Source: Zobellia barbeyronii
Lineage (GTDB): Bacteria > Bacteroidota > Bacteroidia > Flavobacteriales > Flavobacteriaceae
NCBI RefSeq assembly: GCF_018603515.1
Contig: NZ_JACATN010000005.1
Coordinates: 1 to 64,000 of the forward strand
Reading direction: 5' to 3'
Length of the DNA stretch: 64,000 bases
How positions within the stretch are numbered: the stretch's first letter is position 1; each line of letters opens with the position of its first letter. Positions 341 through 29,357 of the stretch are shown here, piece after piece. The notes below the pieces were generated by a model that did no database searches, was not told the origin of the DNA, and worked only from the letters and a program-made list of their open reading frames with translations. Both the position numbers and the translations under genes were made by a program.

Positions 341-1126
341 TTATAGGCGTTCCTCAACTTTAACAAGATGTTCAATTGGAAAAACCGAAGGGCCAAATTG
401 ATTGAAAATAGCAACATCTGCAGCATCACGACCAAAACCCAGAACAACATAACCTCCTGGAGAATCTACTTGGGTGGCATCAAAAGTATACCATCGGTTA
501 CCAATATATGCTTCAAACCAGGCATGCATATCCATTGGTTCCAGATTGTGTAAATAACCAACAACAATACGGGCAGGGATGCTCAAACTTCGGCACAAGG
601 CTATTCCTAAATGAGCCAAGTCCCGGCATACACCAAATTGTCTATTATTAACCTGAATTGCAGATAAGGGCTCATTATTACTACCAGGTAGATACTCAAT
701 GTTCTCACGCAACCAATTTGTAATTGCAGAAACTTGATTATACCCCATTAATTGGCCTTCTGTAATAGCTGCGCCCATTTCGTTAAAACAATCAGACTCA
801 CAATATCTACTAGGCAATAAATAGCTTAATACGGCATCTGGTAAATTTTGAATTTCAACAAATGGTGAGTCAAAACCTTGGTCAATGAAATTAGAGGTTA
901 CAACATCTGAAGAAGTAGAAATTGAGAACATGCCTGGTTGGGCAATTAATCGTTGACAAAGATTGCCATAGTTGTCCGTAAATTCAACAACAGGAGTACT
1001 TGGTGTAATTTTATATTCCTCTCTTTCTACCCATTGCTGGCTGCCGCTACGCGGCCTTAACATAAGAATGAATGGGGTGGGCTCAAAAATTTCAAACTTT
1101 AAGTCACAGCTCGTACGTAAACGCAT
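341..1126 (-). CDS. Transglutaminase-like domain protein
   Basis: This is a 261-residue protein without signal peptide or membrane segment, so it is probably cytoplasmic. The C-terminal half carries the transglutaminase/papain-fold triad: Cys167 in GVCRDLAH, His201 in MHAWFEAY and Asp216 in TFDATQ. The N-terminal half resembles the beta-rich N-terminal domain of bacterial transglutaminase-like proteins, with an RPR motif near residue 24. Members of this family are usually cysteine peptidases or amidases rather than protein crosslinkers; the substrate here is unknown. It is related to the transglutaminase-like proteins of the ATP-grasp cluster at 17.1-29.4 kb but stands 16 kb away. A TAAATTTG -7-like box lies on the minus strand at 1203-1210. 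Confidence 0.85.
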   Translation of the reverse strand: MRLRTSCDLKFEIFEPTPFILMLRPRSGSQQWVEREEYKITPSTPVVEFTDNYGNLCQRLIAQPGMFSISTSSDVVTSNFIDQGFDSPFVEIQNLPDAVLSYLLPSRYCESDCFNEMGAAITEGQLMGYNQVSAITNWLRENIEYLPGSNNEPLSAIQVNNRQFGVCRDLAHLGIALCRSLSIPARIVVGYLHNLEPMDMHAWFEAYIGNRWYTFDATQVDSPGGYVVLGFGRDAADVAIFNQFGPSVFPIEHLVKVEERL

Positions 1127-15340: not shown

Positions 15341-15901
15341 ATGAGTGCAACGTGGTATGAATGTAAGGTAAAATATAGAAAACTTGATGAAACATCAGGT
15401 ACACAAAAGGTAAAGACAGAACCTTTTTTGGTAGATGCAATTTCATATACCGAAGCAGAAAGTAGAATTACGGAAGAAATGTCTGTTTACTTGAGTGACA
15501 CTGAAGAAATTAAGATTACGAATATTAAAGTAGCTAACTACGCAGAAATACATCCGTTTGAGAATTCTGACAGATGGTTTAAGTCTAGAGTGTCTTTAAT
15601 TGCTTTTGACGAAGAGAGCGGTAAAGAGCGTAAAACAAATATGTATTTGTTGATACAGGCTAATGACGTAAAGGAAGCGTATGATAACACTATTGGTGTA
15701 ATGAAAGATACCATGGGTGAATATACTATACCTGCAATTTCTGAATCTCCTATTGTTGACGTTTTCCCATACTTTTCTGGTGAAGAAGACGATATGAAGC
15801 GATTGGAGAAATTTACAATGTTAAAGAATTCTGTTCCTGTAGACAATAGCATGGACGAAGAATTAGAAATGGCAGATGCCCTTGTTACCGAGGAAGAGTA
15901 A
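15341..15901 (+). CDS. DUF4494 domain protein
   Basis: This 186-residue protein starts at MSATWYECKVKY, which matches the usual N-terminus of the Bacteroidota DUF4494 family. The in-frame start at 15266 would add 25 atypical residues. Typical features are the FLVDAISYTEAE stretch near residue 30 and the DRWFKSRV segment. The function of the family is unknown. The tail is acidic (DEELEMADALVTEEE). A strong terminator follows at 15924-15957, so the gene ends its transcript. Confidence 0.85.
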   Translation: MSATWYECKVKYRKLDETSGTQKVKTEPFLVDAISYTEAESRITEEMSVYLSDTEEIKITNIKVANYAEIHPFENSDRWFKSRVSLIAFDEESGKERKTNMYLLIQANDVKEAYDNTIGVMKDTMGEYTIPAISESPIVDVFPYFSGEEDDMKRLEKFTMLKNSVPVDNSMDEELEMADALVTEEE

Positions 15902-15923
15902 CAAGTAAATTTTAATATTATAG

Positions 15924-15957
15924 AAGTCCATCTAAAATTATTTAGATGGACTTTTTT
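15924..15957 (+). terminator. Rho-independent terminator
   Basis: A perfect 13-bp stem (15924-15936 with 15941-15953) with a 4-nt loop runs into a T-run. It terminates the DUF4494 gene. Confidence 0.85.
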
Positions 15958-16182
15958 ATTTTATACATGTATGATTTTTTAAGAAACAAGATAGCTAGAT
16001 TTCATTAGTATAGGTGTTCCATGGATTTTTCAAATCTATCCAGAGTTTCACCATTAACATAGGATTAAGCCACAAATCCTTTAGAGTTCAAAAAAAACTC
16101 TAGACATTCAAACTTATAGTTATATACTAGCTACTTTTAACTTTCAAATACTAACAATAGCTATTTTAGAAACGCCATCTGC

Positions 16183-16524
16183 ATGCTAACTATTTTTACT
16201 TTTTTCTCCGCTTTTTCATTCCTGTTTTTTGGTTTTGGATGTTTCTTTATACCTCAAATGAAAAATGAATTCATAAGATATGGTTTAGCTAAATTTAGAA
16301 AAGTAGTTGGAGTATTACAGCTTGTTGGAGGTTTAGGGTTACTGCTTGGGTATTTTTATTCCCCAATAGTACAAGCCGCAGCCGCGTTAAGTCTTTCTAT
16401 TCTTATGGTTTTGGGCTTCGCTGTTCGCTTAAAAATCAGGGATGGTATTTTCCAATCTGCACCTTCCCTATTATATGCTATATTAAATGGTTATATCTAT
16501 TACAAGCTAATTATAGCAATCTAA
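16183..16524 (+). CDS. DoxX-like small membrane protein A
   Basis: This 113-residue protein has four hydrophobic segments in the arrangement of DoxX-like proteins (PF13564). GVLQLVGGLGLLLGYF forms the second helix and VRLKIRDG the conserved loop before the last helix. The family is of uncertain function, with links to thiosulfate oxidation and redox stress in other groups. It is convergent with a second DoxX-like gene only 6 bp away, whose loop LKIKDPIKKSLPA matches its own LKIRDGIFQSAPS. Confidence 0.7.
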   Translation: MLTIFTFFSAFSFLFFGFGCFFIPQMKNEFIRYGLAKFRKVVGVLQLVGGLGLLLGYFYSPIVQAAAALSLSILMVLGFAVRLKIRDGIFQSAPSLLYAILNGYIYYKLIIAI

Positions 16525-16530
16525 CACGAA

Positions 16531-16899
16531 CTACAATATTGGAAAAGCAATATACAGACACATTGTTAAAAAGATGAAAGCTGGGAGTGATTTTTTTATG
16601 GGGTCTTTTATTTTTAAGTGCATTGCTATAGAGCCCAAAAGTAGTGCCGCAAGACCCAAAGCAGAAGGTTCTCTAAAACTAGGATACCAGATGGCGGCCA
16701 ATAAACCTATAGCAAATAGTATTTTTAAAGTACCCACAACAAAGCACATCCAAACAGGAAGACCATATACTTTAAACTCTTCAATAATAGTTGTTGCATT
16801 ACCGCCACGCCATTGTGTAGGTTTTTTATTCTGTACAAGCCATACATTTAGGATGCTTAATGCTACAATAACTTGTAATGCAATTAGTAAATAGTTCAT
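16531..16899 (-). CDS. DoxX-like small membrane protein B
   Basis: This 122-residue protein has four hydrophobic segments, the Gly-rich second helix of the DoxX-like fold (FVVGTLKILFAIGLLAA) and the loop MHLKIKDPIKKSLPA. It is a paralogue of the rightward protein ending at 16524; the two genes meet tail to tail with 6 bp between stops. No function can be assigned. Confidence 0.7.
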   Translation of the reverse strand: MNYLLIALQVIVALSILNVWLVQNKKPTQWRGGNATTIIEEFKVYGLPVWMCFVVGTLKILFAIGLLAAIWYPSFREPSALGLAALLLGSIAMHLKIKDPIKKSLPAFIFLTMCLYIAFPIL

Positions 16900-17099
16900 C
16901 TTCTTAGTTTAAATTTTGCAAAATTGATATATAGTCGTAAAAATAGTCTGCATCTGAATATTACTATTGCCGATTCAAATTGATTATTAACTGAAAAAAG
17001 TTGCAGCAGAGAATTTAAAGTAGTTTAGAAATTTTATAGATAAGAAAACGGACTTTAATTATAACGAATTCACCCTTGCGCATACTTGAAGGTTTGTAT

Positions 17100-17942
17100 T
17101 TATATTTTTTCTATTTGTAGTTCTGTTATTAATTTAGAACTGGCACTACCTCTAATGCCTCCAGAAACAGGCATTGTATTTTCATAATGAGAACTTGTAG
17201 CAATCGGGAAATGTGTGTTCCCGGTCAAAATACCGTGACTAGGGTCTAAACCCAACCAACCAATACCGGGTAAAAAAACGTCTACCCAAGCATGTAGTTC
17301 AAATGCAGGTACAATCATATCAAAATAATAATAACCGCTTACAAAGCGTGCTGCAATACCTTGTTGTCGTAATAGGTTAATTAACATCCACGACAAATCC
17401 CTACAGGAACCTCTTTTTATTTCAAAAGTATGCTCAGGCAGAAATGGCGCTCCATCTTCTCTATATTCTACAGTAAAATCTTTATGTAATTGGTTGGTGA
17501 GCTGTGTTAAAAAGTGAATGGTATTAAATTCTGCTTTTTCGATTATAGCGGTTCCGTAGTCTATTAATTCTTGTGCAATTGGTAAACCATCTAAGTAAGG
17601 AAATAATAGTTTTTTCTTTGATTCGTCATATTCAAAAGGAATCTGATTATAGCTTTGAGGTTCTAGAATAAAATCAAAAGGATTAAATGGTTTTGTTTCT
17701 AAAATACTCTCAACGGTTATGCTTAGGTTACTTGTAACTCCATCGAACCAACAAAAATCTACAACATTGTTTTCTTCATCTTGAATTATTTTATGTCCGC
17801 TAGGTTCTGGAACAATAGAGATTGAAAACTCATTTATATCAACATATGCAGTCTGCCTTGGTCGAAATCTTAAATAATGAGGCTCTAAAAACACCTCCGA
17901 ATTAAACGCATAGGTTGTAGTATGAGTTATTTTCAATTTCAT
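17100..17942 (-). CDS. Transglutaminase-like protein, operon A
   Basis: This 280-residue protein has the typical N-terminal beta domain (RFRPRQ near residue 25) and a transglutaminase core: Cys180 in RGSCRDLSW, His217 in ELHAWVDV and Asp233 in GLDPSHG. It has no signal peptide. Proteins of this type are encoded beside circularly permuted ATP-grasp and alpha-E proteins in many bacteria and are thought to be cysteine peptidases that trim or transfer peptides. It is the last gene of operon A, 51 bp after the alpha-E gene. Confidence 0.9.
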   Translation of the reverse strand: MKLKITHTTTYAFNSEVFLEPHYLRFRPRQTAYVDINEFSISIVPEPSGHKIIQDEENNVVDFCWFDGVTSNLSITVESILETKPFNPFDFILEPQSYNQIPFEYDESKKKLLFPYLDGLPIAQELIDYGTAIIEKAEFNTIHFLTQLTNQLHKDFTVEYREDGAPFLPEHTFEIKRGSCRDLSWMLINLLRQQGIAARFVSGYYYFDMIVPAFELHAWVDVFLPGIGWLGLDPSHGILTGNTHFPIATSSHYENTMPVSGGIRGSASSKLITELQIEKI

Positions 17943-17993
17943 ATAAAGATTCCAGTTTTTGAAAAGAAATAGAATACATGCATAGATTGTTTT

Positions 17994-18947
17994 TTACACA
18001 TGAATTTCTATGTCAAAGAATGAATTGTAAATAGAAGAAGAAATCTCATTTAACCTAAGCTGAATATCATTAAGATATTCGTGCATTCCTTGGCTTATGA
18101 TATCATTTATATCATCATATTCCAATTGAGATTTTAAAGCCCCTAATTGTTTTTGAGCAATGTTGCTAAAGCCAACAGAGCTACCACATAGGGTGATAAG
18201 AGATTTCTCGGCATTTATTAAACATGCCAAAATTGATCTTGGAAATTGCGTGTCTAAAATTAAAAATTCTGCTATGCTTGAAGGTGTTAGTTTTCCATAT
18301 TTTTTTCGATACATATCATACGCACTAACAGACTTTAGAAGGGCTGCCCATTGTATTAAATCTAGTGAAGACCCAACCTTTGCCGGAGAATGTAGTAACA
18401 AATGATACTTGGCATCTAAAACTCTAGAGGTCTTATCTGCACGTTCTATTACTTGGCCTAATTTACCAAAATCCCAACCTTCATTTCTTGATATGGTAGA
18501 ATCGTACATGCCATAAACCAGTTGACATCCGTTTTTAATTTCTGTCAAAAAACCTCTTAACTCCTTATCATCAAGACGTTTTTGTTCTAAACCCTGTTTG
18601 ACCAAAAAGTAAAGTGAATTTATTTGCTCCCAAATCTCTTTTGTAATTTCAGGTCTTACGGCGCGCGCATTTTCTCTTGCGAGTGAGATGCAATTGTAAA
18701 TAGAGTTGGGATTGTTTTCATCAAAAGCCAAAAAATAGTTGACTTTACTTTTTTCTACCTTAGAATTAAGTGATTCATATAATTCCCAGTCTCCTGTTAT
18801 AACCACAAGCGGCTTCCATTGCTGCTCTTCGTTAGGAGGCAATTCTAGTGATAAATTATAATTTACATCCATAAAACGTGCGTAATTCTCTGCACGTTCA
18901 AGATATCTGTTCATCCAATATATAGTGTTTGCGACTCTGCCTAGCAT
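17994..18947 (-). CDS. Alpha-E domain protein (DUF403)
   Basis: This 317-residue all-helical protein starts with MLGRVANTIYWMNRYLERAEN, the N-terminal signature of the alpha-E domain. Further motifs are DNPNSIYNC-like FDENNPNSIYNC, RENARAVRPEI and GKLGQVIERADKTSR. The family has no known activity. It is defined by its neighbourhood with circularly permuted ATP-grasp ligases and was proposed to take part in a peptide-tagging pathway. It starts 10 bp after the ATP-grasp gene. The same domain is fused to the ATP-grasp protein in operon B. Confidence 0.92.
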   Translation of the reverse strand: MLGRVANTIYWMNRYLERAENYARFMDVNYNLSLELPPNEEQQWKPLVVITGDWELYESLNSKVEKSKVNYFLAFDENNPNSIYNCISLARENARAVRPEITKEIWEQINSLYFLVKQGLEQKRLDDKELRGFLTEIKNGCQLVYGMYDSTISRNEGWDFGKLGQVIERADKTSRVLDAKYHLLLHSPAKVGSSLDLIQWAALLKSVSAYDMYRKKYGKLTPSSIAEFLILDTQFPRSILACLINAEKSLITLCGSSVGFSNIAQKQLGALKSQLEYDDINDIISQGMHEYLNDIQLRLNEISSSIYNSFFDIEIHV

Positions 18948-18957
18948 AGTTTTTCTT

Positions 18958-20394
18958 TTATCTGTTTAATACCCAAGTGTCTTTACTTCCACCACCTTGG
19001 GAAGAGTTCACAACTATTGATCCTTTTGTTAGTGCCACGCGCGTTAAAGCACCTGGTATAATTTTTATATCATCTCCATATAAAGCATACGGCCTTAAAT
19101 CTACATGACGACCTTCAATAGTGTCATCTGTTATTGTTGGCACTCTAGAAAGATTGATCATAGGTTGCGCTATATAGTTTCTAGGTTTATTTTTAATTTT
19201 TGTGATGAACTCTTGTTGCTCTTTTTTTGTTGATTTTGGACCAATTAACATGCCGTAGCCACCGGAAGCATCTGTTTGTTTTACAACCAAATTATGAATA
19301 TTATCTATAACGTATTTCCTGTCTTGTTCTTCATCACAGATATAGGTTTTTACGTTAGGTAAAATCATGTCCTCACCCAAATAATATTTTATGATTCTTG
19401 GAATATAGGCGTAAACCGCTTTATCATCTACTACACCAGTTCCTGGCGCATTAACTAAAGCTACATTTCCTTTTATGTAGGCATTAAATAATCCCGGAGT
19501 ACCTAATAAGGATTGTTTGTTGAATACTAATGGATCTATATACTCATCATCTAAACGACGGTAAATAACATCTACACGCTGTAGACCATTGGTGGTGATC
19601 ATGTAGACGATATCATTTTTTACGATTAAATCTTTACCTTCTACCAATTCTGCACCCATTTGCTGTGCTAAATAAGAATGCTCAAAATAAGCCGCATTGT
19701 AAACACCTGGTGTTAAAACTACTACAACTGGCTTTTCTTTGTCTGAAAGATATTCTAAAGTATCTCTTAAAGTATGTGTATAATCATAAACAGGTTTTAC
19801 CCCTAGTTGTTCAAATAATTCTGGAAATGTTCTTTTAAGTATTTCCCGGTTTTCCAACATATAGGATACCCCAGAAGGACATCTTAGATTATCTTCTAAT
19901 ACATAGTATTGCCCATCACCGCCTTTTATTAAATCAGACCCGGTAATATGACACCAGATATCCTTTGGAGGTTTAAAGCCTTCTAACTGCTTCAGATATG
20001 AGACGCTAGATAGAATCATTTCCTTCGGTATAATTTTATCTTTAAACACCTTTTGATCATTATAAATATCCTGAATGAACAAGTTAAGTGCCTTTATGCG
20101 CTGCTGTAAACCCCTTTCTAGTAATGTCCATTCAGAATTACCAATGATTCTAGGAATAATATCTAAATGAAGAATACGCTCTACCCCTTGGTTATCTGCA
20201 TAGACATTAAAAGTCATTCCTAAAGATAGTTGAGCCCTATCTGTAGCATATTGTAGACTTTTAAGCTTTTTATGACTGAGTTTTTCGAGTCGCTCTAAAA
20301 ACATTTTATAATTAGGCCTGACATTGTTGTTTTCATCAAACATTTCGTCATAAAAATCTTTGGTGTCGTAAGCTGTAAAATCAATTTTTGACAT
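18958..20394 (-). CDS. Circularly permuted type 2 ATP-grasp protein, operon A
   Basis: This 478-residue protein is counted from MSKIDFTAYD; an upstream Met at 20436 would add 14 residues. It is a DUF404/DUF407-type circularly permuted ATP-grasp ligase. Motifs include RRLDDEYIDPL, NAPGTGVVDD, VVKQTDASGGYGM with the glycine-rich ATP loop, and DLRPYAL. Such ligases join a carboxylate to an amine through an acyl phosphate. The acceptor and donor of this family are unknown. It opens operon A, followed by alpha-E and transglutaminase-like genes. The fused paralogue in operon B lacks the SGGYGM loop, so this copy is the better candidate for catalysis. Confidence 0.92.
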   Translation of the reverse strand: MSKIDFTAYDTKDFYDEMFDENNNVRPNYKMFLERLEKLSHKKLKSLQYATDRAQLSLGMTFNVYADNQGVERILHLDIIPRIIGNSEWTLLERGLQQRIKALNLFIQDIYNDQKVFKDKIIPKEMILSSVSYLKQLEGFKPPKDIWCHITGSDLIKGGDGQYYVLEDNLRCPSGVSYMLENREILKRTFPELFEQLGVKPVYDYTHTLRDTLEYLSDKEKPVVVVLTPGVYNAAYFEHSYLAQQMGAELVEGKDLIVKNDIVYMITTNGLQRVDVIYRRLDDEYIDPLVFNKQSLLGTPGLFNAYIKGNVALVNAPGTGVVDDKAVYAYIPRIIKYYLGEDMILPNVKTYICDEEQDRKYVIDNIHNLVVKQTDASGGYGMLIGPKSTKKEQQEFITKIKNKPRNYIAQPMINLSRVPTITDDTIEGRHVDLRPYALYGDDIKIIPGALTRVALTKGSIVVNSSQGGGSKDTWVLNR

Positions 20395-20844
20395 AAAAAA
20401 TGGCGCATTTTCTCCAGTTGAAAAACTATTTTTCACTTTATAATCAGCTAATAAATAAGAATTAGAAAGGATTAATTGTTATTAGAAAGTCTTGTAAGTA
20501 CACCCTGTAGTACTATGCCTATTAAATTACGAAAAATAAAGTGGATAATCCTTAAGTCTTTGAATAAAATAAACTTTAAGCAAGCAGATTATTTATTTAT
20601 CAATATATAAAGGATTAAAATGAAAGATTCAGAATAGATGATACTTTAGATTCTTATTTATTAAATATATCTCCTTTATCTCTTTACTGATTAAGCCTCA
20701 GTATATAAAGAGTATTAAAACATGTATCTATGGTTTCTTTGGTGAAATATTCATTGAACAATAATCAAAGAATATTGAATTTTATTAGGATTAACGCAAT
20801 AAAAGTTGTATAATATAGATACGAACTAAAAATAAAATAAATAC
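20395..20844. other. Divergent region between operon A and sigma gene
   Basis: This is strongly AT-rich. It should carry the promoters of the ATP-grasp operon and the sigma-factor gene. No exact TAnnTTTG box, palindrome or ORF was identified, so these promoters may be of another class. Confidence 0.35.
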
Positions 20845-21705
20845 ATGAGGCAACTAAAGATCACTAAACAAATTACAAACAGAGACACTAAATCCTTAGA
20901 AAAGTACTTTCAAGAAATATCAAAAATTGATTTAATTACCGCAGAGGAGGAAGTAGAACTGACTAGAAGAATACGTGAAGGAGATCAGATTGCCCTTAAT
21001 AAATTAGTAAATGCCAATTTACGTTTTGTAGTTTCTACAGCAAAACAATACCAAGGAAGTGGTTTACGACTTTCAGATTTAATCAACGAAGGAAATATTG
21101 GATTGGTCAAAGCAGCAAAACGTTTTGACGAAACTCGTGGATTTAAATTTATTTCCTATGCTGTATGGTGGATTAGACAAGCAATAATGTCTGCAATTTC
21201 ACAGCATTCACGAATGGTACGATTACCACTGAATAAGATAGGTGAAATTAGTAAAATTAATCAGGTATACTCTTCTTTAGAACAATCTTACCAACGCCCT
21301 CCTAGTGCAATTGAAATTGCTAAGGATTTAGATATGAGTACTGCGCAAGTTAAAATTGCTATGAAAAATTCAGGTAAGCATCTATCTATGGACGCACCTT
21401 TTAAAGAAGGAGAGGGTTCTAATTTATATGATGTTGTAAAATCAAACGACGCGATTAGTCCTGATGCCGGTATGATGATGGATTCCCTTAGAACAGATAT
21501 TGATTCAATTCTAAACACACTTCCAAATAGAGAGAGTGAAATTATAAAGCTTTATTATGGTATTGGAGAACGTGCCCCAATAAGCTTAAGCGAGATTGGT
21601 GAGCTTTTTGACATTACTCGTGAGCGTGTAAGACAAATTAGAGAAAAAGCTATTCGTCTTCTAAGAAACAAATCCCAGAAGGAAGTTTTAAAAGCTTATC
21701 TATAA
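20845..21705 (+). CDS. RpoD-like sigma-70 factor, paralogue
   Basis: This 286-residue group 1/2 sigma-70 factor begins MRQLKITKQITNR, as the Bacteroidota primary sigma factor does. It has region 1.2 (LEKYFQEIS), region 2 (DLINEGNIGLVKAA, GFKFISYAVWWIRQAI), region 3 (RPPSAIEIAKDL) and region 4.2 (LSEIGELFDITRERVRQI). Changes from the usual housekeeping sequence, such as AIMSAISQHSRMVRLP, suggest a paralogue, but I cannot show that the primary rpoD is elsewhere. It sits between two leftward ATP-grasp operons and could direct them; that is inference. A strong terminator follows at 21726-21760. Confidence 0.9.
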   Translation: MRQLKITKQITNRDTKSLEKYFQEISKIDLITAEEEVELTRRIREGDQIALNKLVNANLRFVVSTAKQYQGSGLRLSDLINEGNIGLVKAAKRFDETRGFKFISYAVWWIRQAIMSAISQHSRMVRLPLNKIGEISKINQVYSSLEQSYQRPPSAIEIAKDLDMSTAQVKIAMKNSGKHLSMDAPFKEGEGSNLYDVVKSNDAISPDAGMMMDSLRTDIDSILNTLPNRESEIIKLYYGIGERAPISLSEIGELFDITRERVRQIREKAIRLLRNKSQKEVLKAYL

Positions 21706-21725
21706 GATTTCATATTGATATATAC

Positions 21726-21760
21726 AAAAAGCCGACTCACTAAGAGTCGGCTTTTTTTTT
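21726..21760. terminator. Bidirectional rho-independent terminator
   Basis: AAAAAGCCGACTC at 21726-21738 pairs with GAGTCGGCTTTTT at 21744-21756, followed by more T. It lies between the sigma gene and the convergent amidotransferase gene and fits both. Confidence 0.9.
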
Positions 21761-21798
21761 GTTTAGAACCTCATTTTCTGAATAATACAGAAGTTTTA

Positions 21799-22509
21799 TT
21801 AAGCATTTTCTGTTATCTGTTTGAAGCGTTTCAACAGTTTGGAACCATAGGCCACATCAACAACCTCGTTGCTTAATTTTAAAACATCTCGTCCTTCACT
21901 GGCAAGTTCCTCAGGCAGTTCATTAATATATGCTTTAGTAATATTTTGGTCAAATTCAGGGTGGAATTGAACGCCCCAAGTACTTTCGTTAAATCTAAAG
22001 GCATCAATCACTCCAGATTCATTAACAGAAAGAATCTCGGCAGATTTGGGTAGATGATACACACTTTGTTTATGTGCCTTATAAACTTTGAAATTAGATG
22101 GCAATTCTCCAAGGAGTTTATCTTTTTTGCCTTCTGCAGTTAACAAAGTATTTTCGGAACCTATAACTATTCCCATACCATTGTAAGATACAGTCCCTCC
22201 AAAAATAAAACTCAATAATTGGTGTCCATAACAAATACCCAATATTGGTATTCCATTGTCGTGAGCATTTACCAACCAGCTACACATTCTATTCTCTAAA
22301 GGTTCAATATCTGTTACCATAGAATGGGAGCCCGTAATTACGATTCCCGTGTAGTTGTTATTTGGTGGTAATGTTTGAAAATTTTCAGTTTTATGAATTA
22401 GGTATTCACCTTCTTTTAAACTCATTTTTCCTATGATCCAATCTTCAAAATCTCCGTACTGAGACTTAATGGACTTATAGGTAGTTCCTGTTTTTAGTAT
22501 AAGAATCAT
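21799..22509 (-). CDS. Class I glutamine amidotransferase
   Basis: This 236-residue protein has the class I triad: the nucleophile Cys in GICYGHQL (near residue 93), and His and Glu in QFHPEFD (near 182). The oxyanion strand is GIVITGSHSM. The family releases ammonia from glutamine for a partner, or hydrolyses gamma-glutamyl bonds when it stands alone, as in PuuD-like enzymes. It is 48 bp downstream of a transglutaminase-like gene and ends operon B. Its place there suggests handling of glutamine or gamma-glutamyl products of the ligases; this is inference. Confidence 0.88.
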   Translation of the reverse strand: MILILKTGTTYKSIKSQYGDFEDWIIGKMSLKEGEYLIHKTENFQTLPPNNNYTGIVITGSHSMVTDIEPLENRMCSWLVNAHDNGIPILGICYGHQLLSFIFGGTVSYNGMGIVIGSENTLLTAEGKKDKLLGELPSNFKVYKAHKQSVYHLPKSAEILSVNESGVIDAFRFNESTWGVQFHPEFDQNITKAYINELPEELASEGRDVLKLSNEVVDVAYGSKLLKRFKQITENA

Positions 22510-22557
22510 TGTAACAGATTGACTGAATTAGAAGGTAAAATGGACAAGTAAATTTCC

Positions 22558-23451
22558 CTATTCCTTTGCAGCGGCTATATCTACAGCAACTTTAAGCTTG
22601 CTTTTACCGCTACCGAACACAACACCTTTTAGCGGAGGAACATCATAATAATCCCTACCCCACCCTACAACAATATGCTGATTTAAAGGGATTTGGTTGT
22701 TCGTTGGGTCAAAGTCTACCCATCCAAAAGTTGGTATGTAAATAGCGAACCAAGCATGCGAGGCATCAGAACCAACTAGTTTTTCTTTTCCTTCAGGAGG
22801 TAATGTTTCTATATAACCACTTATGTAACGAGCTGGTAACCCAATTGATCTGATACATGCAATCGCTATTTGAGCAAAATCTTGACAAACCCCCTTTTTT
22901 TCTCTCATAACCTCGTCTATAGGTGTAGAAATACTGGTAAATCCGGAATCAAAATCAAAATCTGTATAAATGCGCTGCATTAACTCATAAGCAGCTTCAA
23001 AAACGGACCTGTTTGCTTTAAAAGATAATTCGGCATAATCCTTAATTGCTTTATCTGTTTTGCGGATAAAAATAGATTCTAATATATACTGCTTAGCCTC
23101 TATAATTTCAGGGTCATTACTATTTAAAGCACTCAGGGCATCAGTTAAAGTCACCCCCTTACAAGCATCAGAAAAGAAAGACTCATGGTATTGCGTATAG
23201 TCCCGCAACACTTTACTTTGGGTAATTACTTTTAATACGGTATGCTGTGTTTGAATAGAAAAACGAGTTAAGTAGTTTCCAAAAAAATCTACTCGTTCAG
23301 ATATTTCCGCTGGCTCCGGAACAACATCAATCTTATAAGACAACAATTGCTGTCCATTAGATTCACGAGGCCTTAGGGTTGCTATATTATGACAATAGCT
23401 AACCGGAGCGTTATATTCATATTTCGTAATATGGGTAATATTGAATATCAT
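22558..23451 (-). CDS. Transglutaminase-like protein, operon B
   Basis: This 297-residue protein has an N-terminal beta domain (ATLRPRES near 25-31) and a core with Cys189 in KGVCQDFAQ, His232 in ASHAWFAIY and Asp248 in DFDPTNN. It has no signal peptide. The GVCQDFAH-type motif is the most common form in transglutaminase-like cysteine peptidases. It starts 2 bp after the ATP-grasp/alpha-E gene stop and is therefore translationally coupled or nearly so. Confidence 0.92.
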   Translation of the reverse strand: MIFNITHITKYEYNAPVSYCHNIATLRPRESNGQQLLSYKIDVVPEPAEISERVDFFGNYLTRFSIQTQHTVLKVITQSKVLRDYTQYHESFFSDACKGVTLTDALSALNSNDPEIIEAKQYILESIFIRKTDKAIKDYAELSFKANRSVFEAAYELMQRIYTDFDFDSGFTSISTPIDEVMREKKGVCQDFAQIAIACIRSIGLPARYISGYIETLPPEGKEKLVGSDASHAWFAIYIPTFGWVDFDPTNNQIPLNQHIVVGWGRDYYDVPPLKGVVFGSGKSKLKVAVDIAAAKE

Positions 23452-23453
23452 AA

Positions 23454-26009
23454 CTAAATAGGAAAAGACTGTCTAACTAATTGATTTTGCTTGGTCGTGT
23501 GATCAAAATAAGTTTTTGATATGGATTGGGACGTTTCATAAAGTAAGTCGGATAGTTCTTCTAGTAAATTATCTAAATCTTTGCGTACAACATCCTCTTT
23601 TGATTCGGATTTTACAAGATCTATTGAATTTGCCAGACGTAATTTTGAAAAACCTTCAAATATGTATTTCTGATAATCCACCAAATGATGCATTGTATCT
23701 GAGTGAGGTAATTTTGATATATCTTTTTGAATTCTATTAAACATATAGGTTAGTGATCTTGAGTATTCTAAGTCAAGCATCACCAAATCAATAACATGCT
23801 CTATTTGAATATACGAACGGTAACTATGTCTATAAATATTTAAACTTTCATGACTAACCAATAAGTACTCTAATAATTCATACTCTACTTGCTCATCATA
23901 TTTTATAGACAACAAAGACCTGCATTTTGTAATTGTTAGCGTACTCTGTTCTAGCTGCAACCCAATAAAATAAAGCAACAAACCTTGTTGCACCATTATG
24001 CTTTCTTCTATTAAACCCATAAATGCAATTAAGCGGGTTATTAATTGATTAAGCACTTTTATTATTTTGTTGATGGATCTGTCAGAGTCTTCTTCAAAAC
24101 TTCTCCATATTTTTTGAATATTTTCAAAAACACGCCACATATCGGAAGACCAAAGGTTTCTTATGGAATAGTATGAATTACTGAACATACTAATGGTATG
24201 GGCTAAACTACCCGACCTGTTTTTATCCAGAATAACAGATAGCATTTCTTTATAAGGATCATCCATTGCAAATTCTCCTTTTTTATTTTTCTCGGAGAAT
24301 CCCGGAAAGGTTCCGGTTAACTGTGTTACTGCGTTAAAAAGCACCTGTAACTTAACGCTATCTGGTTTTTCACTACTATTCTGAACAAGAACCATCTGTT
24401 TCAGCACCATTCTTAAAAAACGGGCATTAACTAAGGTTCGACCTACATAACGACCGGCCCAATATAGATTTTCAGCGGTAAGACTGGGTAAATCGTTTAA
24501 ACCCGTAGCACCAATAGATGGTTTTGGTTGCCAGTAGTGTGCTTTGGTCTCCTTACTTGCGGCATCTTCTAGTATCCAAAAATCTTTACTGGTACCACCA
24601 CGCTGATTGGATACACGAACGGTATCCCTATCTGGAGCAACACGTACTAAACCACCTGGCATTACGGAATACCCATCTTCTGTTCCTATAGAAAAAGTTC
24701 TAGCCACCAAATTTCGTGGTTCAATTTTTCCGTCTGTAAGATTTGGAGCTGTAGAAAAATTAATTTTCTCTTGAGCTACAAACCTGTATGGTCTAAGATT
24801 AATTTCTGCTTTTAGCTTTTCAATTTCATCTTTACTTAGAAATTCCCCAAAATGAATGCTCTCGCGGTTGGTACGATCTATTCTTTTAATTACAAGGTTA
24901 GAAATATTGTTTAAAACATAATTCCGTTCCTTTTCCTGACCACACCACCATGAAGCTATTTGTGGTAAAATAAGTTCCTCTTTGAGAAAATACCTTGCTA
25001 TGGCAGGCATAAAAGGTATTAGCCCAGGGTTTTCTAGAACGGCACTACCAACAGGATTTATAATTGCCACGTTACCTCTGCGTACCACATCTAGTAATCC
25101 CGCAACACCAAGACGTGAATCTTCTCTAAGTTCTAAAGGGTCTATATATGCATCATCTACTCTTCTAAGAACAACATCTACTTGTTTTAATCCCTTTAGC
25201 GATTTCATCCACAAAAATCCGTTACGAACAACTAAATCGTTGCCCTGGACCAATGGATAACCTAAAAAAGAGGCTAAAAAGGCATGCTCAAAATAAGTTT
25301 CGTTATGCGAACCCGGAGTTAAAATTACGATGTTCGGATTTTCTTTGTTTTCAGGAGAAGCATCAACCAACATTTGGTTGAACTCTTGGAAGAAACCAGA
25401 AAGTCCCTTTACATTCATTTTAGAAAACATCTCAGGCAGCATTCTACTTGTAGTAGATCTATTCTCTAAGGCGTATCCCATACCAGAAGGAGCTTCTGCA
25501 CGATCATTTACGACCCACAAACGCCCATCCGTACCACGAGCAATATCTGCAGCGTACATGGATAGTAATTTTTCAGTAGAATATTTTATTCCTGTACATT
25601 GACGCAAAAAACCGCGATGCCCGTAAATAATTTCACTAGGTACGATTCCGTTTTTAATGAGATTACGCTCGCCATAAACATCTTTCAAAACCAAGTTTAA
25701 TAACTCAGCTCTTTGCTTTAACCCTGCTTCAACAAGTTTCCATTCGCTTTCATGCAATAAAAAAGGAACCGCGTTTAGATTCCATGGTCTATGCAATCCT
25801 TTGGGGTCATTGTAAACATTATAGGTGACACCATTCTCTGCCAAAAGCCAGTCAATATCTCTTTGACGTGCATTTAAACCTTCTTCACCTAACTCACCTA
25901 GACCTTTAAAAAGTTTTGTCCAATGCGGTTTTACATCCATTTTTGGAGTAAACATTTCATCGGACTTATAATCTGTAAAATAATTACTTAACCACGTTGT
26001 ATTTATCAC
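23454..26009 (-). CDS. Circularly permuted ATP-grasp fused to alpha-E domain
   Basis: This 851-residue fusion has two parts. Residues 1 to about 490 are a circularly permuted type 2 ATP-grasp domain (RRVDDAYIDPL, NPVGSAVLEN, RGGTSKDFW). Residues from about 505 are an alpha-E domain starting at LTAENLYWAGRYVGRTL. Compared with the free ATP-grasp protein of operon A, the loop KQTDASGGYGM is replaced by KRIDRTNRESIHFG. The conserved Lys is kept, but the Gly-rich ATP loop is gone and DLRPY has become VARTF. This copy may be inactive or use a different nucleotide geometry. It lies 18 bp after the gene upstream and 2 bp before the next. Confidence 0.92.
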   Translation of the reverse strand: MINTTWLSNYFTDYKSDEMFTPKMDVKPHWTKLFKGLGELGEEGLNARQRDIDWLLAENGVTYNVYNDPKGLHRPWNLNAVPFLLHESEWKLVEAGLKQRAELLNLVLKDVYGERNLIKNGIVPSEIIYGHRGFLRQCTGIKYSTEKLLSMYAADIARGTDGRLWVVNDRAEAPSGMGYALENRSTTSRMLPEMFSKMNVKGLSGFFQEFNQMLVDASPENKENPNIVILTPGSHNETYFEHAFLASFLGYPLVQGNDLVVRNGFLWMKSLKGLKQVDVVLRRVDDAYIDPLELREDSRLGVAGLLDVVRRGNVAIINPVGSAVLENPGLIPFMPAIARYFLKEELILPQIASWWCGQEKERNYVLNNISNLVIKRIDRTNRESIHFGEFLSKDEIEKLKAEINLRPYRFVAQEKINFSTAPNLTDGKIEPRNLVARTFSIGTEDGYSVMPGGLVRVAPDRDTVRVSNQRGGTSKDFWILEDAASKETKAHYWQPKPSIGATGLNDLPSLTAENLYWAGRYVGRTLVNARFLRMVLKQMVLVQNSSEKPDSVKLQVLFNAVTQLTGTFPGFSEKNKKGEFAMDDPYKEMLSVILDKNRSGSLAHTISMFSNSYYSIRNLWSSDMWRVFENIQKIWRSFEEDSDRSINKIIKVLNQLITRLIAFMGLIEESIMVQQGLLLYFIGLQLEQSTLTITKCRSLLSIKYDEQVEYELLEYLLVSHESLNIYRHSYRSYIQIEHVIDLVMLDLEYSRSLTYMFNRIQKDISKLPHSDTMHHLVDYQKYIFEGFSKLRLANSIDLVKSESKEDVVRKDLDNLLEELSDLLYETSQSISKTYFDHTTKQNQLVRQSFPI

Positions 26010-26027
26010 TTATGTTGAAAGTTTTCT

Positions 26028-29000
26028 TTATTTCTTTTTCCGTAAATCAAGTACATGAGGGTATTCTGGACTTACTGGAATCTCTGAATAGTCAAAAGTA
26101 GTAGAAGCAGCTTTACGTTCTACCATTCTACCAACAAAATTTGTTGCTGCAACCATTTCTGTAGGCGCTATCTCTCCTTGCGTATGACCAAAGTCCCAAA
26201 AGCGATTAATTCTTCGTGATTCGGCCTCATAACTATTCACCGGATAACTATCATAAGATAGCCCGCCAGGATGAGCAACAAAATAGGTGCAACCACCTAT
26301 AGACTTATTATTCCAAGTATCTACCACATCAAAAACCAACGGCGTATCTACACCTAATGTAGGGTGTAAAGCAGACCAAGGTTCCCAAGCTTTAAAACGC
26401 ACACCAGCAACATACTCACCTTTTACTCCTGTACTACTTAATTGTACTTTTACACCGTTACAGGTTAAAACATAGCGTTCTTCTGTAAAATTATTGATTT
26501 TTATCTGTACCCTTTCTAGTGAAGAATCTACGTATCTGGCTGTTCCTCCGCCCGTCATCTCCTCTCCAAGTACATTCCAAGGTTCTATAGCCATGCGCAA
26601 TTCTATCTGCATGGCATTAATTTCGACCATACCATAAAGTGGAAATCTAAACTCGAAGAAAGGATCAAACCAATCTAATTTAAATGGAAAGCCTGCATCA
26701 TTAAGTTGGGTAACTATGTCCTTTATATCTTCTTTTACATAATGCTCCAATAAGAATTTATCGTGCAGTTCCGTTCCCCATCGCACTAAATTGTGCTTAT
26801 AAGGTTTTTTCCAGAACCAAGCTACCAGCGTTCGTACCAATAACATTTGCATTAGACTCATCTGTGCATGTGGCGGCATATCAAAAGCCCGAAGCTCAAG
26901 AATACCTAAACGCCCAGATGAACTATCTGGAGAATATAATTTATCTATACAAAACTCCGCTCTATGAGTGTTTCCTGTAATATCCGTCAATAAATGTCTA
27001 AAAAGCCTATCGGTCAGCCAAAAAGGAACCTCTTCGTCATCAGGAATTTGAGAAAAAGCAATTTCTAATTCGTATAAATTTTCTAACCTAGCTTCATCTA
27101 CACGTGGAGCTTGACTTGTTGGCCCAATAAAGGCTCCTGAAAATAAATATGAAAGACCAGGATGGTGTTGCCAAAAAGTAAGTAAACTACGAAGCAATTG
27201 AGGATTTCTAAGCAATGGACTATCTGCAGGAGTTACGCCACCTAAAGTAACGTGGTTTCCACCACCAGTACCTGTATGCTTCCCATCCAGCATAAATTTC
27301 TCTGTGCCCAACCTACACTTTTTGGCTTCGGCATATAATAAAAGTGTATTGTCCGTAAGCTCCTTCCAGTTTTTTGCTGGATGCACATTCACTTCAATTA
27401 CCCCAGGATCCGGTGTAACTTTAAGCACTTCCAAACGATTGTCCCTTGGTGGCTCATAACCTTCCAAAATCACGGGAACATCTAATTCTTTGGCCGAGGC
27501 TTCTATACTGGCTACTAAATCTAAAAAGTCTTCTGCGCTATCTAACGGAGGTAGAAAAAGATATAATTTTTCTTCCCTAACCTCGGCACAAATTGCTGTA
27601 CGCACGTAAGGCTGCTTTTCTAGCTTTGGCTTTACCTTTGCGGACTTTATTCTTTGTTTTAGCTCAAAACCATAAGGTTTCAATTTTGGCTTTGTTTCAA
27701 ACATTTCTGGCTCTGCCGTAGGTTCTGAAGGTACCTCAGGGTCTTTTGGCAATGATTCTAGTGGTAAACGCAAACCTACTGGCGAATTCCCCGGTGTTAA
27801 GTATAAATGTTTACCACGAAACTCCCAAGGGTTAGTAATCCACTGAGCATCTTTTTTGGCCAACGGAAAAACATAACCTATAGTTTCTCCAAGACCTTGC
27901 TCCAAAATCTCGCCCAACTTACGTCTTAGGCTGGTATCTTTTTTATTATATTTTTTAGGGTCAACATCAACCGGTAATTTCCCTTCTTCCCAAAGAAAAT
28001 AAAAGGCATCTTCATAAGCAGGCATAATGCTGGTTTCAGAAGCACCTAATTTACTAGCTAGGTTCTTTAGAAAAGTATTACTAATATTTTCAGGTAATTT
28101 ATAGGTCTCAGAAAATGAAGCTAGCAATTTAGGCTCATCCCAAACCTTTTCACCATCTTTTCGCCAATGTATTCCTATTAACCAACGTGGTAATGGCTCG
28201 CCAGGGTACCATTTTCCTTGTGCGTGATGCAATAGACCACCTTTGCTAAATGCATTCTTTAAGCTCACAGAAAGTTCGCTCGCTAGTTTTCTTTTATGTT
28301 CTCCATCAGCAGCCGTGTTCCATTCTTTAGATTCCATATCATCTATAGAAACAAAAGTTGGCTCTCCTCCCATGGTCAATCGTACATCATTGGCCTGTAA
28401 TTGCTCCTCTACTTCAAAACCTAGATTGTAAATAGCATTCCACTGATCTTCTGTATAGGGTTTTGTTACTCTTGGAGATTCAAAAATTCTAGTAACGGAA
28501 TTATTAAATATGAATTCAGTTTCACACGGATCTGTCATTCCAGATACTGGGGCAGCACTTTCAAAAGAAGGTGTACATGCTAGCGGTATATGGCCCTCAC
28601 CTGCCAAAAGTCCTGAAGTGGAATCCAATCCAATCCAACCTGCACCAGGTAGATATACTTCGGTCCATGCATGTAAATCCGTAAAATCTTCTTCTGGACC
28701 AGAAGGACCATCCAATGATTTTTCATCAGATTTTAATTGCACCAAATATCCAGAAACAAAACGTGCTGCAAGACCTAGATGTCTTAAGGTCTGTACTAAA
28801 AGCCATGCAAAATCTCTACAGGAACCAAGCTTTTTATCTAAGGTTTCTTCACAAGACTGCACGCCAGGCTCCATACGGACCGTATAATTAAGATAATTAT
28901 ACAGGCTGCTGTTCAGCTCTATCAAAAAGTCAATACTTCTTTTAGGAGTTAAATCAATTTTTTTTACCCAATCTTTCAATAGTGGGCCCTTCTCAGTTAT

Positions 29001-29357
29001 TTCTAAATAAGGTAAAAGTTCTTTTTTCAATTCCTCCGAATAGACAAAAGGATAATTTTCCACCCCTTTTTCAACAAAAAAATCAAAAGGATTAATTGTT
29101 TTCAAATCGGCAATAATCTCAATATCTACTGATAGGAAATCTGTTTTCTCAGGAAAAACAATACGTGCTAGATAGTTGCCAAAAGGATCCTGTTGCCAAT
29201 TAAAAAAATGATTGTCTGGCTTTATTTTAATAGAATACGCTTCAATAGGTGTGCGACTATGTGGTGCTGGTCTTAGTCTAAAAATATGTGGAGAAAGATT
29301 AATTCTCCTATCATATTTATAAGTCGTCTTATGTGAGATTGATACTTTCAGTGCCAT
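26028..29357 (-). CDS. Transglutaminase-DUF2126 (GS-like ligase) fusion
   Basis: This 1109-residue protein opens operon B. Residues 1-290 are a transglutaminase-like domain with Cys180 in LGSCRDFAW, His229 in DLHAWTEVY and Asp245 in GLDSTSG. From about 310 (NDVRLTMGGEPTF) to the end is DUF2126, which comparative genomics has described as a circularly permuted glutamine-synthetase-like COOH-NH2 ligase. The motif GTGGGNHVTLGG (696-707) and the later HRAEFCID and LELRAFDMPPH segments agree with this. A Pro/Lys-rich linker (about 540-582) splits the region. The joint presence of a predicted peptidase and a ligase in one chain suggests coupled cleavage and ligation. Confidence 0.92.
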   Translation of the reverse strand: MALKVSISHKTTYKYDRRINLSPHIFRLRPAPHSRTPIEAYSIKIKPDNHFFNWQQDPFGNYLARIVFPEKTDFLSVDIEIIADLKTINPFDFFVEKGVENYPFVYSEELKKELLPYLEITEKGPLLKDWVKKIDLTPKRSIDFLIELNSSLYNYLNYTVRMEPGVQSCEETLDKKLGSCRDFAWLLVQTLRHLGLAARFVSGYLVQLKSDEKSLDGPSGPEEDFTDLHAWTEVYLPGAGWIGLDSTSGLLAGEGHIPLACTPSFESAAPVSGMTDPCETEFIFNNSVTRIFESPRVTKPYTEDQWNAIYNLGFEVEEQLQANDVRLTMGGEPTFVSIDDMESKEWNTAADGEHKRKLASELSVSLKNAFSKGGLLHHAQGKWYPGEPLPRWLIGIHWRKDGEKVWDEPKLLASFSETYKLPENISNTFLKNLASKLGASETSIMPAYEDAFYFLWEEGKLPVDVDPKKYNKKDTSLRRKLGEILEQGLGETIGYVFPLAKKDAQWITNPWEFRGKHLYLTPGNSPVGLRLPLESLPKDPEVPSEPTAEPEMFETKPKLKPYGFELKQRIKSAKVKPKLEKQPYVRTAICAEVREEKLYLFLPPLDSAEDFLDLVASIEASAKELDVPVILEGYEPPRDNRLEVLKVTPDPGVIEVNVHPAKNWKELTDNTLLLYAEAKKCRLGTEKFMLDGKHTGTGGGNHVTLGGVTPADSPLLRNPQLLRSLLTFWQHHPGLSYLFSGAFIGPTSQAPRVDEARLENLYELEIAFSQIPDDEEVPFWLTDRLFRHLLTDITGNTHRAEFCIDKLYSPDSSSGRLGILELRAFDMPPHAQMSLMQMLLVRTLVAWFWKKPYKHNLVRWGTELHDKFLLEHYVKEDIKDIVTQLNDAGFPFKLDWFDPFFEFRFPLYGMVEINAMQIELRMAIEPWNVLGEEMTGGGTARYVDSSLERVQIKINNFTEERYVLTCNGVKVQLSSTGVKGEYVAGVRFKAWEPWSALHPTLGVDTPLVFDVVDTWNNKSIGGCTYFVAHPGGLSYDSYPVNSYEAESRRINRFWDFGHTQGEIAPTEMVAATNFVGRMVERKAASTTFDYSEIPVSPEYPHVLDLRKKK

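Follow-up and report, generated by a model that had tools for sequence, protein, structure and literature searches.

Results

The DNA examined here is a stretch of 64,000 nucleotides from Zobellia barbeyronii (hereafter the window), which lies on one contig (C33) of a genome of 4.98 Mb that is split over 37 contigs. It encodes two leftward gene sets, operon A (17100-20436) and module B (22558-29357). Both are of a known, uncharacterised kind, the circularly permuted ATP-grasp/alpha-E/transglutaminase system predicted to be of the amidoligase or peptide-synthesis type, and the window is a further member of it. A preliminary description of this DNA had treated the two ATP-grasp proteins as equals. 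We found that they are not: the stand-alone protein of operon A keeps the hallmark residues of the family, and the ATP-grasp of module B, which is fused to a second alpha-E domain, has lost them, as most fused alpha-E domains have lost theirs. This suggests that the fused protein is a conserved degenerate paralogue of the whole stand-alone pair, with a predicted loss of catalysis. In the genomes sampled, DUF2126, which module B contains, appears to go with the stand-alone pair and a metallopeptidase, Peptidase_Mx, appears to travel with the system. Our overall reading, to which we give a probability of about 0.45, is an ATP-driven system that forms amide bonds (peptide or isopeptide), with a division of labour between paralogues and trimming by a peptidase. 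We make no claim that the motif loss or the metallopeptidase link is unpublished.

Gene content of the two sets

The genes are real. A Pfam scan of the window proteins found every domain that had been named earlier, with very strong scores: CP_ATPgrasp_2 in two proteins (E = 6.6e-164 and 1.3e-149), Alpha-E in two (E = 3.3e-96 and 1e-50), Transglut_core with Bact_transglu_N in three, DUF2126 (E = 0), GATase (E = 1.6e-21), and sigma-70 regions 1.2-4. The inventory of two ATP-grasps, two alpha-E domains, three transglutaminases, one DUF2126 domain, and one glutamine amidotransferase was therefore confirmed. The parts of the two sets are as follows.

17100..17942, minus strand: operon A transglutaminase-like protein (Bact_transglu_N and Transglut_core by Pfam; Cys, His and Asp present)
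17994..18947, minus strand: operon A stand-alone alpha-E (contains both ER motifs; modelled as all-helical; no relative found among solved structures)
18958..20436, minus strand: operon A stand-alone circularly permuted ATP-grasp (ExNxR and GGYG present, from which alone competence is predicted; related to PDB 3n6x)
22558..23451, minus strand: module B transglutaminase-like protein (Cys, His and Asp present)
23454..26009, minus strand: module B fusion of an ATP-grasp (about 24564-26009) and an alpha-E domain (about 23490-24491) (ATP-grasp hallmark residues lost; under purifying selection)
26028..29357, minus strand: module B protein with an N-terminal transglutaminase domain (about 28533-29357) and a DUF2126 domain, predicted to be a glutamine synthetase-like (GS-like) carboxylate-amine ligase (about 26034-28532); hereafter TG-DUF2126

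The gene order in operon A is ATP-grasp, alpha-E, transglutaminase, and in module B it is TG-DUF2126, ATP-grasp/alpha-E fusion, transglutaminase. Operon A has the composition of the known system, namely a type 2 circularly permuted ATP-grasp, an adjoining alpha-E gene, and a Bact_transglu_N transglutaminase in the same operon. All three transglutaminase proteins of the two sets contain the Cys, His, and Asp residues of the fold. These residues are the same in all 84 of the TG-DUF2126 proteins and all 127 of the separate transglutaminases that were compared.

The fused ATP-grasp/alpha-E protein lacks hallmark residues

In the ATP-grasp superfamily, ExNxR and the glycine loop are ligands of the metal and of ATP. 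The corresponding motifs, ExNxRxPSG and K..GGYG, were each present in 46 of 46 stand-alone ATP-grasps and in none of 68 fused ones (67 distinct sequences, one being an exact copy; ATP-grasp pieces shorter than 400 aa were dropped). The fused copies differ at many positions that are invariant in the stand-alone proteins, including the expected active site. The same was seen in a hold-out of 13 further genomes: all 13 stand-alone copies carry both motifs, and none of the 7 fused copies that were fetched does. Plasmid records with a match numbered 117; the six fused copies that we picked from these (Azospirillum, Sinorhizobium, Halomonas, Sphingomonas, Caballeronia, and Enterobacter) all lack both motifs, and the plasmid-borne stand-alone copies that adjoin a fused one (Halomonas, in two pieces; Caballeronia; Enterobacter) keep both.

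The fused alpha-E domains show a parallel loss. E17 and R169, residues of the ER motifs, do not vary among the stand-alone alpha-E proteins (62 of 62), but only 19 and 10, respectively, of the 75 fused ones retain them; W11, R14, R18, G164, and E168 are invariant in both forms. In these counts pieces shorter than 260 aa were dropped, as were loci L207, L208, and L212, which we took to be repeats of L113, L156, and L124. On a tentative reading, the fact that both halves of the fused protein lost such residues would mean that alpha-E takes a direct part in the same reaction and is no bystander.

Compared with its counterpart in Zobellia uliginosa, the fused gene of the window has a ratio of nonsynonymous to synonymous substitution rates (dN/dS) of about 0.03. 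Its ATP-grasp part has a ratio of 0.025, and the synonymous rate (dS) is saturated. This is purifying selection, and thus the fused gene is not a dying gene. Such a low ratio might also be expected if the fused ATP-grasp were still catalytic despite its altered residues, perhaps by using a different nucleotide or a metal-free chemistry. The altered site is itself conserved, with xDRx[E/Q]xPSG in place of the usual motif in 62 of 68 copies, its R in 67 of 68, and the lysine ahead of the glycine loop in 59 of 68. However, the ExN and glycine-loop motifs are gone from all 68, which is hard to fit with ATP-grasp chemistry as we understand it, and we regard continued catalysis of this kind as quite unlikely.

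DUF2126 and the stand-alone pair

DUF2126 was found in 52 and alpha-E in 104 of the 397 genomes of a family sample, the former spread over 41 of 237 genera. All 52 genomes with DUF2126 had a stand-alone alpha-E gene versus 52 of the 345 others (Fisher p = 3e-36, uncorrected for relatedness). A phylum sample of 198 Bacteroidota genomes, which shares the window genome with the family sample, had alpha-E in 78 (77 over the family cut-off), and its nine genomes with DUF2126 all had the stand-alone form. For most of the 52 family genomes this whole-genome search covered alpha-E only. In 13 genomes we searched the whole genome for the ATP-grasp as well; these were the three genomes of loci L054, L072, and L073 (two of them with DUF2126) and ten other DUF2126 genomes. 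A full-length stand-alone ATP-grasp with both motifs was present in 13 of 13, and hence in 12 of 12 with DUF2126; in two of the latter (G190 and G137) it lies away from alpha-E. The ATP-grasp shares a stretch with the stand-alone alpha-E in 62 of 65 loci, repeats of one genome included. These patterns suggest that DUF2126 goes with the stand-alone pair; it was never seen without a stand-alone alpha-E.

The duplication had been described as a specific feature of this copy. Comparison of gene neighbourhoods argues otherwise, as paired modules recur in several phyla. In 18 of the 52 family genomes, DUF2126 has a stand-alone alpha-E gene within 12 kb, against a crude chance estimate of 0.3. Of 71 named loci, 13 have the stand-alone ATP-grasp and alpha-E in one stretch with module B (among them Marinomonas, Desulfuromonas, a Desulfobacteraceae genome, Aquincola, Mangrovibacterium, and Polaribacter), as do three of the six chosen plasmid loci. 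On an ATP-grasp tree, which also holds relatives from Pseudomonadota and Thermodesulfobacteriota and from which five loci were omitted as repeats or near-repeats, the DUF2126-linked label takes at least seven changes. Thus, linkage to DUF2126 was gained or lost repeatedly.

Some individual loci merit mention. In Enterobacter roggenkampii a five-gene composite set, with IS26 nearby, lies on an IncFII-type plasmid (L227), and thus the composite set can be plasmid-borne. At 11 Maribacter-type loci a response-regulator-like gene, which could be a regulator, lies a median of about 200 bp from a core gene (for example at 16969-17634 of L126). At loci L140, L142, L153, and L224 the DUF2126, ATP-grasp, or transglutaminase genes are in pieces, from frameshifts or sequencing errors.

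Comparison within Zobellia

The genome contains a third ATP-grasp/alpha-E/transglutaminase set that had gone unnoticed, on contig C22 (6333-9789 of locus L004). Like operon A, it has the three core families with high scores and in the usual order. Sets of this type also occur in the other three genomes of the genus, by gene order in G182 (L053) and in G574, which is Z. uliginosa (L214), and by alpha-E score alone in G424. There are three alpha-E genes in the window genome, two in Z. uliginosa, and a single one in each of G182 and G424. In 10 loci, or 8 after two repeats are removed, the C22-type set has a peptide chain release factor gene (PCRF and RF-1 domains) close by, a stable synteny.

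Among named relatives, Z. uliginosa has the closest DUF2126 gene, with 92% identity. When the DNA of the window was compared with locus L093 of Z. uliginosa (L193 comes from the same genome), module B, the amidotransferase gene, the sigma factor gene, and a DUF4494 gene were collinear. Positions 15901-20760 of the window, which hold operon A and two small convergent DoxX-like genes (16183-16899), had no match in L093. The only two alpha-E matches in Z. uliginosa are the fused one and the one of the C22-type set.

On the ATP-grasp tree, operon A clusters with four other genomes of the same family (support 100/99). These lie within a larger group of 19 rows (98/92, midpoint root), and in 11 of those rows a gene for Anbu, a relative of the proteasome, adjoins the ATP-grasp gene. 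By its position in this group, operon A is a member of the Anbu-type lineage without Anbu. The C22 copy falls elsewhere, with the copy of G182 (100/100). Our reading of the patchy distribution is that operon A was probably gained by transfer; the alternative is a loss in Z. uliginosa. Two other genomes, G556 (L202) and G347 (L205), have the same content of operon A and module B side by side.

These comparisons bear on whether the two sets are independent, redundant copies of one pathway. Both carry the same domain names, and in Z. uliginosa module B exists without operon A. Yet Z. uliginosa keeps the other stand-alone set, and DUF2126 was never without a stand-alone alpha-E in the 52 family genomes. 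The two ATP-grasps of the window are only 35% identical and separate in the tree at 100/100, a split that carries a long-branch warning, and the fused copy is degenerate at its hallmark residues. Redundancy is thus very improbable. A division of labour between the paralogues seems to us the probable account of these sequences.

Peptidases linked to the system

Anbu had been reported as missing from the window, which our analysis bore out. We also looked for it in the rest of the genome and found none, either with PF00227 (no match at E <= 10) or with an Anbu profile of eight sequences (no match at E <= 0.001). One of the eight was tested and matches solved Anbu structures, and the same profile found Anbu in 15 of the 198 Bacteroidota genomes, all 15 of which have alpha-E. 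Because no Anbu gene was found in the genome, we did not file operon A as an Anbu operon.

When 1,233 flanking genes from 129 loci were clustered, Anbu was the most frequent cluster (15 loci). A protein with a zinc ribbon and a Peptidase_Mx domain formed a cluster of 10 loci (PF10005 and PF15887 in the one tested; HExxH in 10 of 10). The clusters that were as frequent, an outer-membrane receptor type (12 loci), neighbours confined to Maribacter, and the release-factor synteny of the C22-type set, were judged to reflect synteny among close relatives or within that set, or a broad receptor family, and were set aside. Peptidase_Mx lies within about 1.4 kb of operon A-type sets at six loci of the same family and near DUF2126 or the fused gene at four Chitinophagaceae-type loci. 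In Caballeronia it stands between alpha-E and TG-DUF2126, and in Halomonas a partial match adjoins the set. The window genome has one zinc-ribbon and Peptidase_Mx gene, overlooked before, which is in trans on contig C31 (5806-6840 of L219).

In the family sample, 29 genomes had Peptidase_Mx over the cut-off. All 29 have alpha-E (p = 5e-19) and 23 have DUF2126 (p = 9e-18, or 1.8e-4 within the alpha-E genomes; all three values are uncorrected for relatedness). Four matches below the cut-off (20-23 bits; G373, G088, G465, and G219), none in a genome with alpha-E, are outside the 29. In Zobellia, Peptidase_Mx is present in the two genomes with DUF2126 and absent from the two without DUF2126. There were matches in 7 of 198 genomes of the phylum sample, four of them over the cut-off. 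The three strong ones (G000, G064, and G158) are all in genomes with DUF2126, and the fourth is weak (G039, 28.7 bits) and in a genome without alpha-E and DUF2126. From these distributions it seems that the metallopeptidase travels with the system. No rule emerged by which Peptidase_Mx simply replaces Anbu, and we rejected that idea; G446 (L204), G064, and G158 have both.

Structural and sequence relatives

The model of alpha-E is all-helical with a predicted local distance difference test score (pLDDT) of 93. Its fold had no match at E <= 0.001 in the PDB (best E 0.48) or among viral models (best E 0.58). By sequence, the only solved structure to appear was 4n4p (E 0.17), which we took as chance.

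The DUF2126 model (pLDDT 73.5) had as its top Foldseek matches the GS-fold carboxylate-amine ligases YbdK, gamma-glutamylmethylamide synthetase (GmaS), and glutamine synthetases, the best with E 0.016 and probability 0.94. These matches are weak; they are in line with a GS-like ligase. The DUF2126 protein is much longer than those enzymes and has a transglutaminase domain in front. A search with its sequence gave no solved structure below E 0.05.

For the stand-alone ATP-grasp there is one match of known structure, 3n6x, which its depositor labelled a putative glutathionylspermidine synthase. Glutathionylspermidine synthetase (GspS) is itself a circularly permuted ATP-grasp. We detected no relation to it when profiles were compared with E. 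coli GspS, and for this reason we do not lean on the label. The label and the YbdK, GmaS, and glutamine synthetase folds together could indicate small-molecule amide metabolism, in which a gamma-glutamyl or polyamine-type amide would be made or broken and DUF2126 would act like YbdK or GmaS. However, the label is the depositor's only, and the linked peptidases, Anbu and Peptidase_Mx, point to peptide bonds. We consider a small-molecule role unlikely.

A role in anti-phage defence was also considered and set aside, as none of eight proteins matched a PADLOC defence model. Mycobacterial homologues are presumably Rv2566-Rv2569c.

Neighbouring genes

Three further genes of the window lie near the two sets or resemble their parts.

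341..1126, minus strand: candidate accessory transglutaminase-like gene at the contig edge, not reported earlier (homologues directly adjoin TG-DUF2126 in L202 and L048)
20845..21705, plus strand: primary-type sigma-70 factor between the two operons; a neighbour, not a conserved part
21799..22509, minus strand: class-I glutamine amidotransferase (GATase; NCBIfam PRK09065 above cut-off); a neighbour

The embedded sigma factor reported earlier was present, on the plus strand between the two operons. It and the amidotransferase had been taken as parts of the system, and we rejected this for both. We counted them at 80 DUF2126 loci (9 + 71, some with short flanks; the amidotransferase model was made from the window protein alone). 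A sigma factor gene is near module B at 4 of the 80 (the window, L052, L093, and L103), and the amidotransferase is near it in the window and Z. uliginosa alone; they are neighbours and are not conserved. In Z. uliginosa, where operon A is missing, the sigma factor gene stays beside module B. It is one of three close primary-type paralogues in the genome and is 66% and 63% identical to the others. The amidotransferases of the window and Z. uliginosa are 61% identical, with a dN/dS of about 0.11 versus about 0.03 for module B.

Discussion

The filing of this DNA under the amidoligase or peptide-synthesis type holds, as does the absence of a linked Anbu gene. The equality of the two ATP-grasps, a duplication peculiar to this copy, and a place for the sigma factor and amidotransferase in the system were not supported. 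Module B shares the DUF2126 and fusion forms of the known system. This genome differs from the usual case in that there is no Anbu, there are three sets, the one fused copy is degenerate, and Peptidase_Mx is in trans. With the Anbu operon, as known from Yersinia bercovieri, Pseudomonas, and Hyphomicrobium, operon A shares an ATP-grasp that falls in a tree group with Anbu-bearing sets, and Anbu was not found here.

Published accounts of related operons were available to us as excerpts, and what follows is limited to these. Two of them deal with the Anbu/ATP-grasp/alpha-E/transglutaminase operon and credit Iyer 2009 with the idea of peptide synthesis or tagging (PMC5666114, PMC6376114); a third also cites the predicted peptide-synthesis system of Iyer et al. 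2009 and reports that in marine metagenomes the domains are associated with urea metabolism domains (PMC3597751). A relative of the ATP-grasp released phosphate from ATP, no peptidase activity of Anbu was detected, and the hypotheses on function were called unconfirmed (PMC6376114). A rise in expression under nitrogen limitation is cited (PMC5666114). In Burkholderia cenocepacia, DUF404/407, DUF403, and two transglutaminase-like genes depend on NtrC and sigma54 (PMC5491218); from its description, the "large protein containing transglutaminase-like domain" of that study appears to be TG-DUF2126. In Pseudomonas putida grown on nitrate versus ammonium, the log2 change was 4.4 for Anbu and 4.0 for the ATP-grasp (about 22- and 16-fold up; PMC8050072). 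The term DUF2126 itself was not mentioned in the literature searched.

The sequences show which genes are present and which motifs are lost or kept, along with purifying selection, co-occurrence, and recurrent linkage. We infer the enzyme reactions, the formation of a complex, the role of alpha-E, the product, and a nitrogen setting in this organism, as follows. The stand-alone ATP-grasp would activate a carboxylate as an acyl phosphate and, with the stand-alone alpha-E, would pass the acyl group to an amine. The fused ATP-grasp/alpha-E protein would be catalytically silent and be kept as a partner within module B, perhaps as a scaffold, an acceptor site, or a regulator. A second ligation would be the task of DUF2126, the GS-like domain that is joined to a transglutaminase-like one. 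The transglutaminase-like enzymes may transfer or hydrolyse amides, and a peptidase would trim the product, Peptidase_Mx in trans here and Anbu in other genomes. That a copied, fused, and silenced ATP-grasp/alpha-E pair lets DUF2126 work with the active pair, while Peptidase_Mx trims in place of or beside Anbu, is a tentative proposal to which we assign somewhat less than even odds. We hold more loosely still our preferred setting, nitrogen economy, in which the product would be short amide-rich peptides that are made and recycled.

A different use of the same enzymes would be the tagging and turnover of proteins. As with Pup and the proteasome, the ligases would add a peptide or an amino acid to proteins, and during starvation a peptidase (Anbu or Peptidase_Mx) would degrade these proteins or remove the tag. 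The Pup ligase has a GS fold, the fold that DUF2126 weakly resembles, and Anbu, where it was found in the phylum sample, was always accompanied by alpha-E. The nitrogen-related expression in Proteobacteria would also suit this role, which has been proposed before (PMC6376114). Against it, the PF00227 and Anbu profile searches found no proteasome-type protein in this genome, and 63 of the 78 alpha-E genomes of the phylum sample have no Anbu. Nor did a gene for a tag come to light, although no search for one was made. Together with the lack of detected Anbu activity noted above, this leads us to doubt that tagging is the function.

Several points weigh against the amide-bond system with divided labour that we favour. 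Three genomes with DUF2126, a stand-alone ATP-grasp, alpha-E, and Anbu have no fused copy (G064, G158, and G162), and thus the degenerate partner is not needed everywhere. At 3 of the 65 loci (L054, L072, and L073) the stand-alone alpha-E has no ATP-grasp nearby; in those genomes a stand-alone ATP-grasp is on another contig. The co-occurrence tests are uncorrected for relatedness. The assignment of ExNxR and the glycine loop as ligands in these proteins is carried over from the superfamily. The GS-like fold of DUF2126 is a weak match, with no PDB match at E <= 0.001, and the comparison of the ATP-grasp profile with E. coli GspS gave an hhalign probability of 0.14%. In the excerpts available, Anbu used as bait gave no specific interaction among the operon proteins (PMC6376114), and unchanged expression under various conditions is cited along with an operon that is dispensable for unstressed growth (PMC5666114). 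In reporter assays the Anbu promoter was unresponsive to nitrogen and the ATP-grasp promoter was only 3.7-fold up (PMC8050072). The nitrogen data are thus mixed, and they come from Proteobacteria only. As the preliminary description had also stated, no enzyme product for any member was found in the literature searched, as far as the excerpts of it go.

The system is widespread across the genomes sampled, and the excerpts from the literature searched gave no product for it. Our results tell an enzymologist which proteins to mix: a potentially active ATP-grasp, its degenerate partner, DUF2126 with the stand-alone pair, and the metallopeptidase. If our reading is correct, one purified ATP-grasp alone would not show the product of the composite system.

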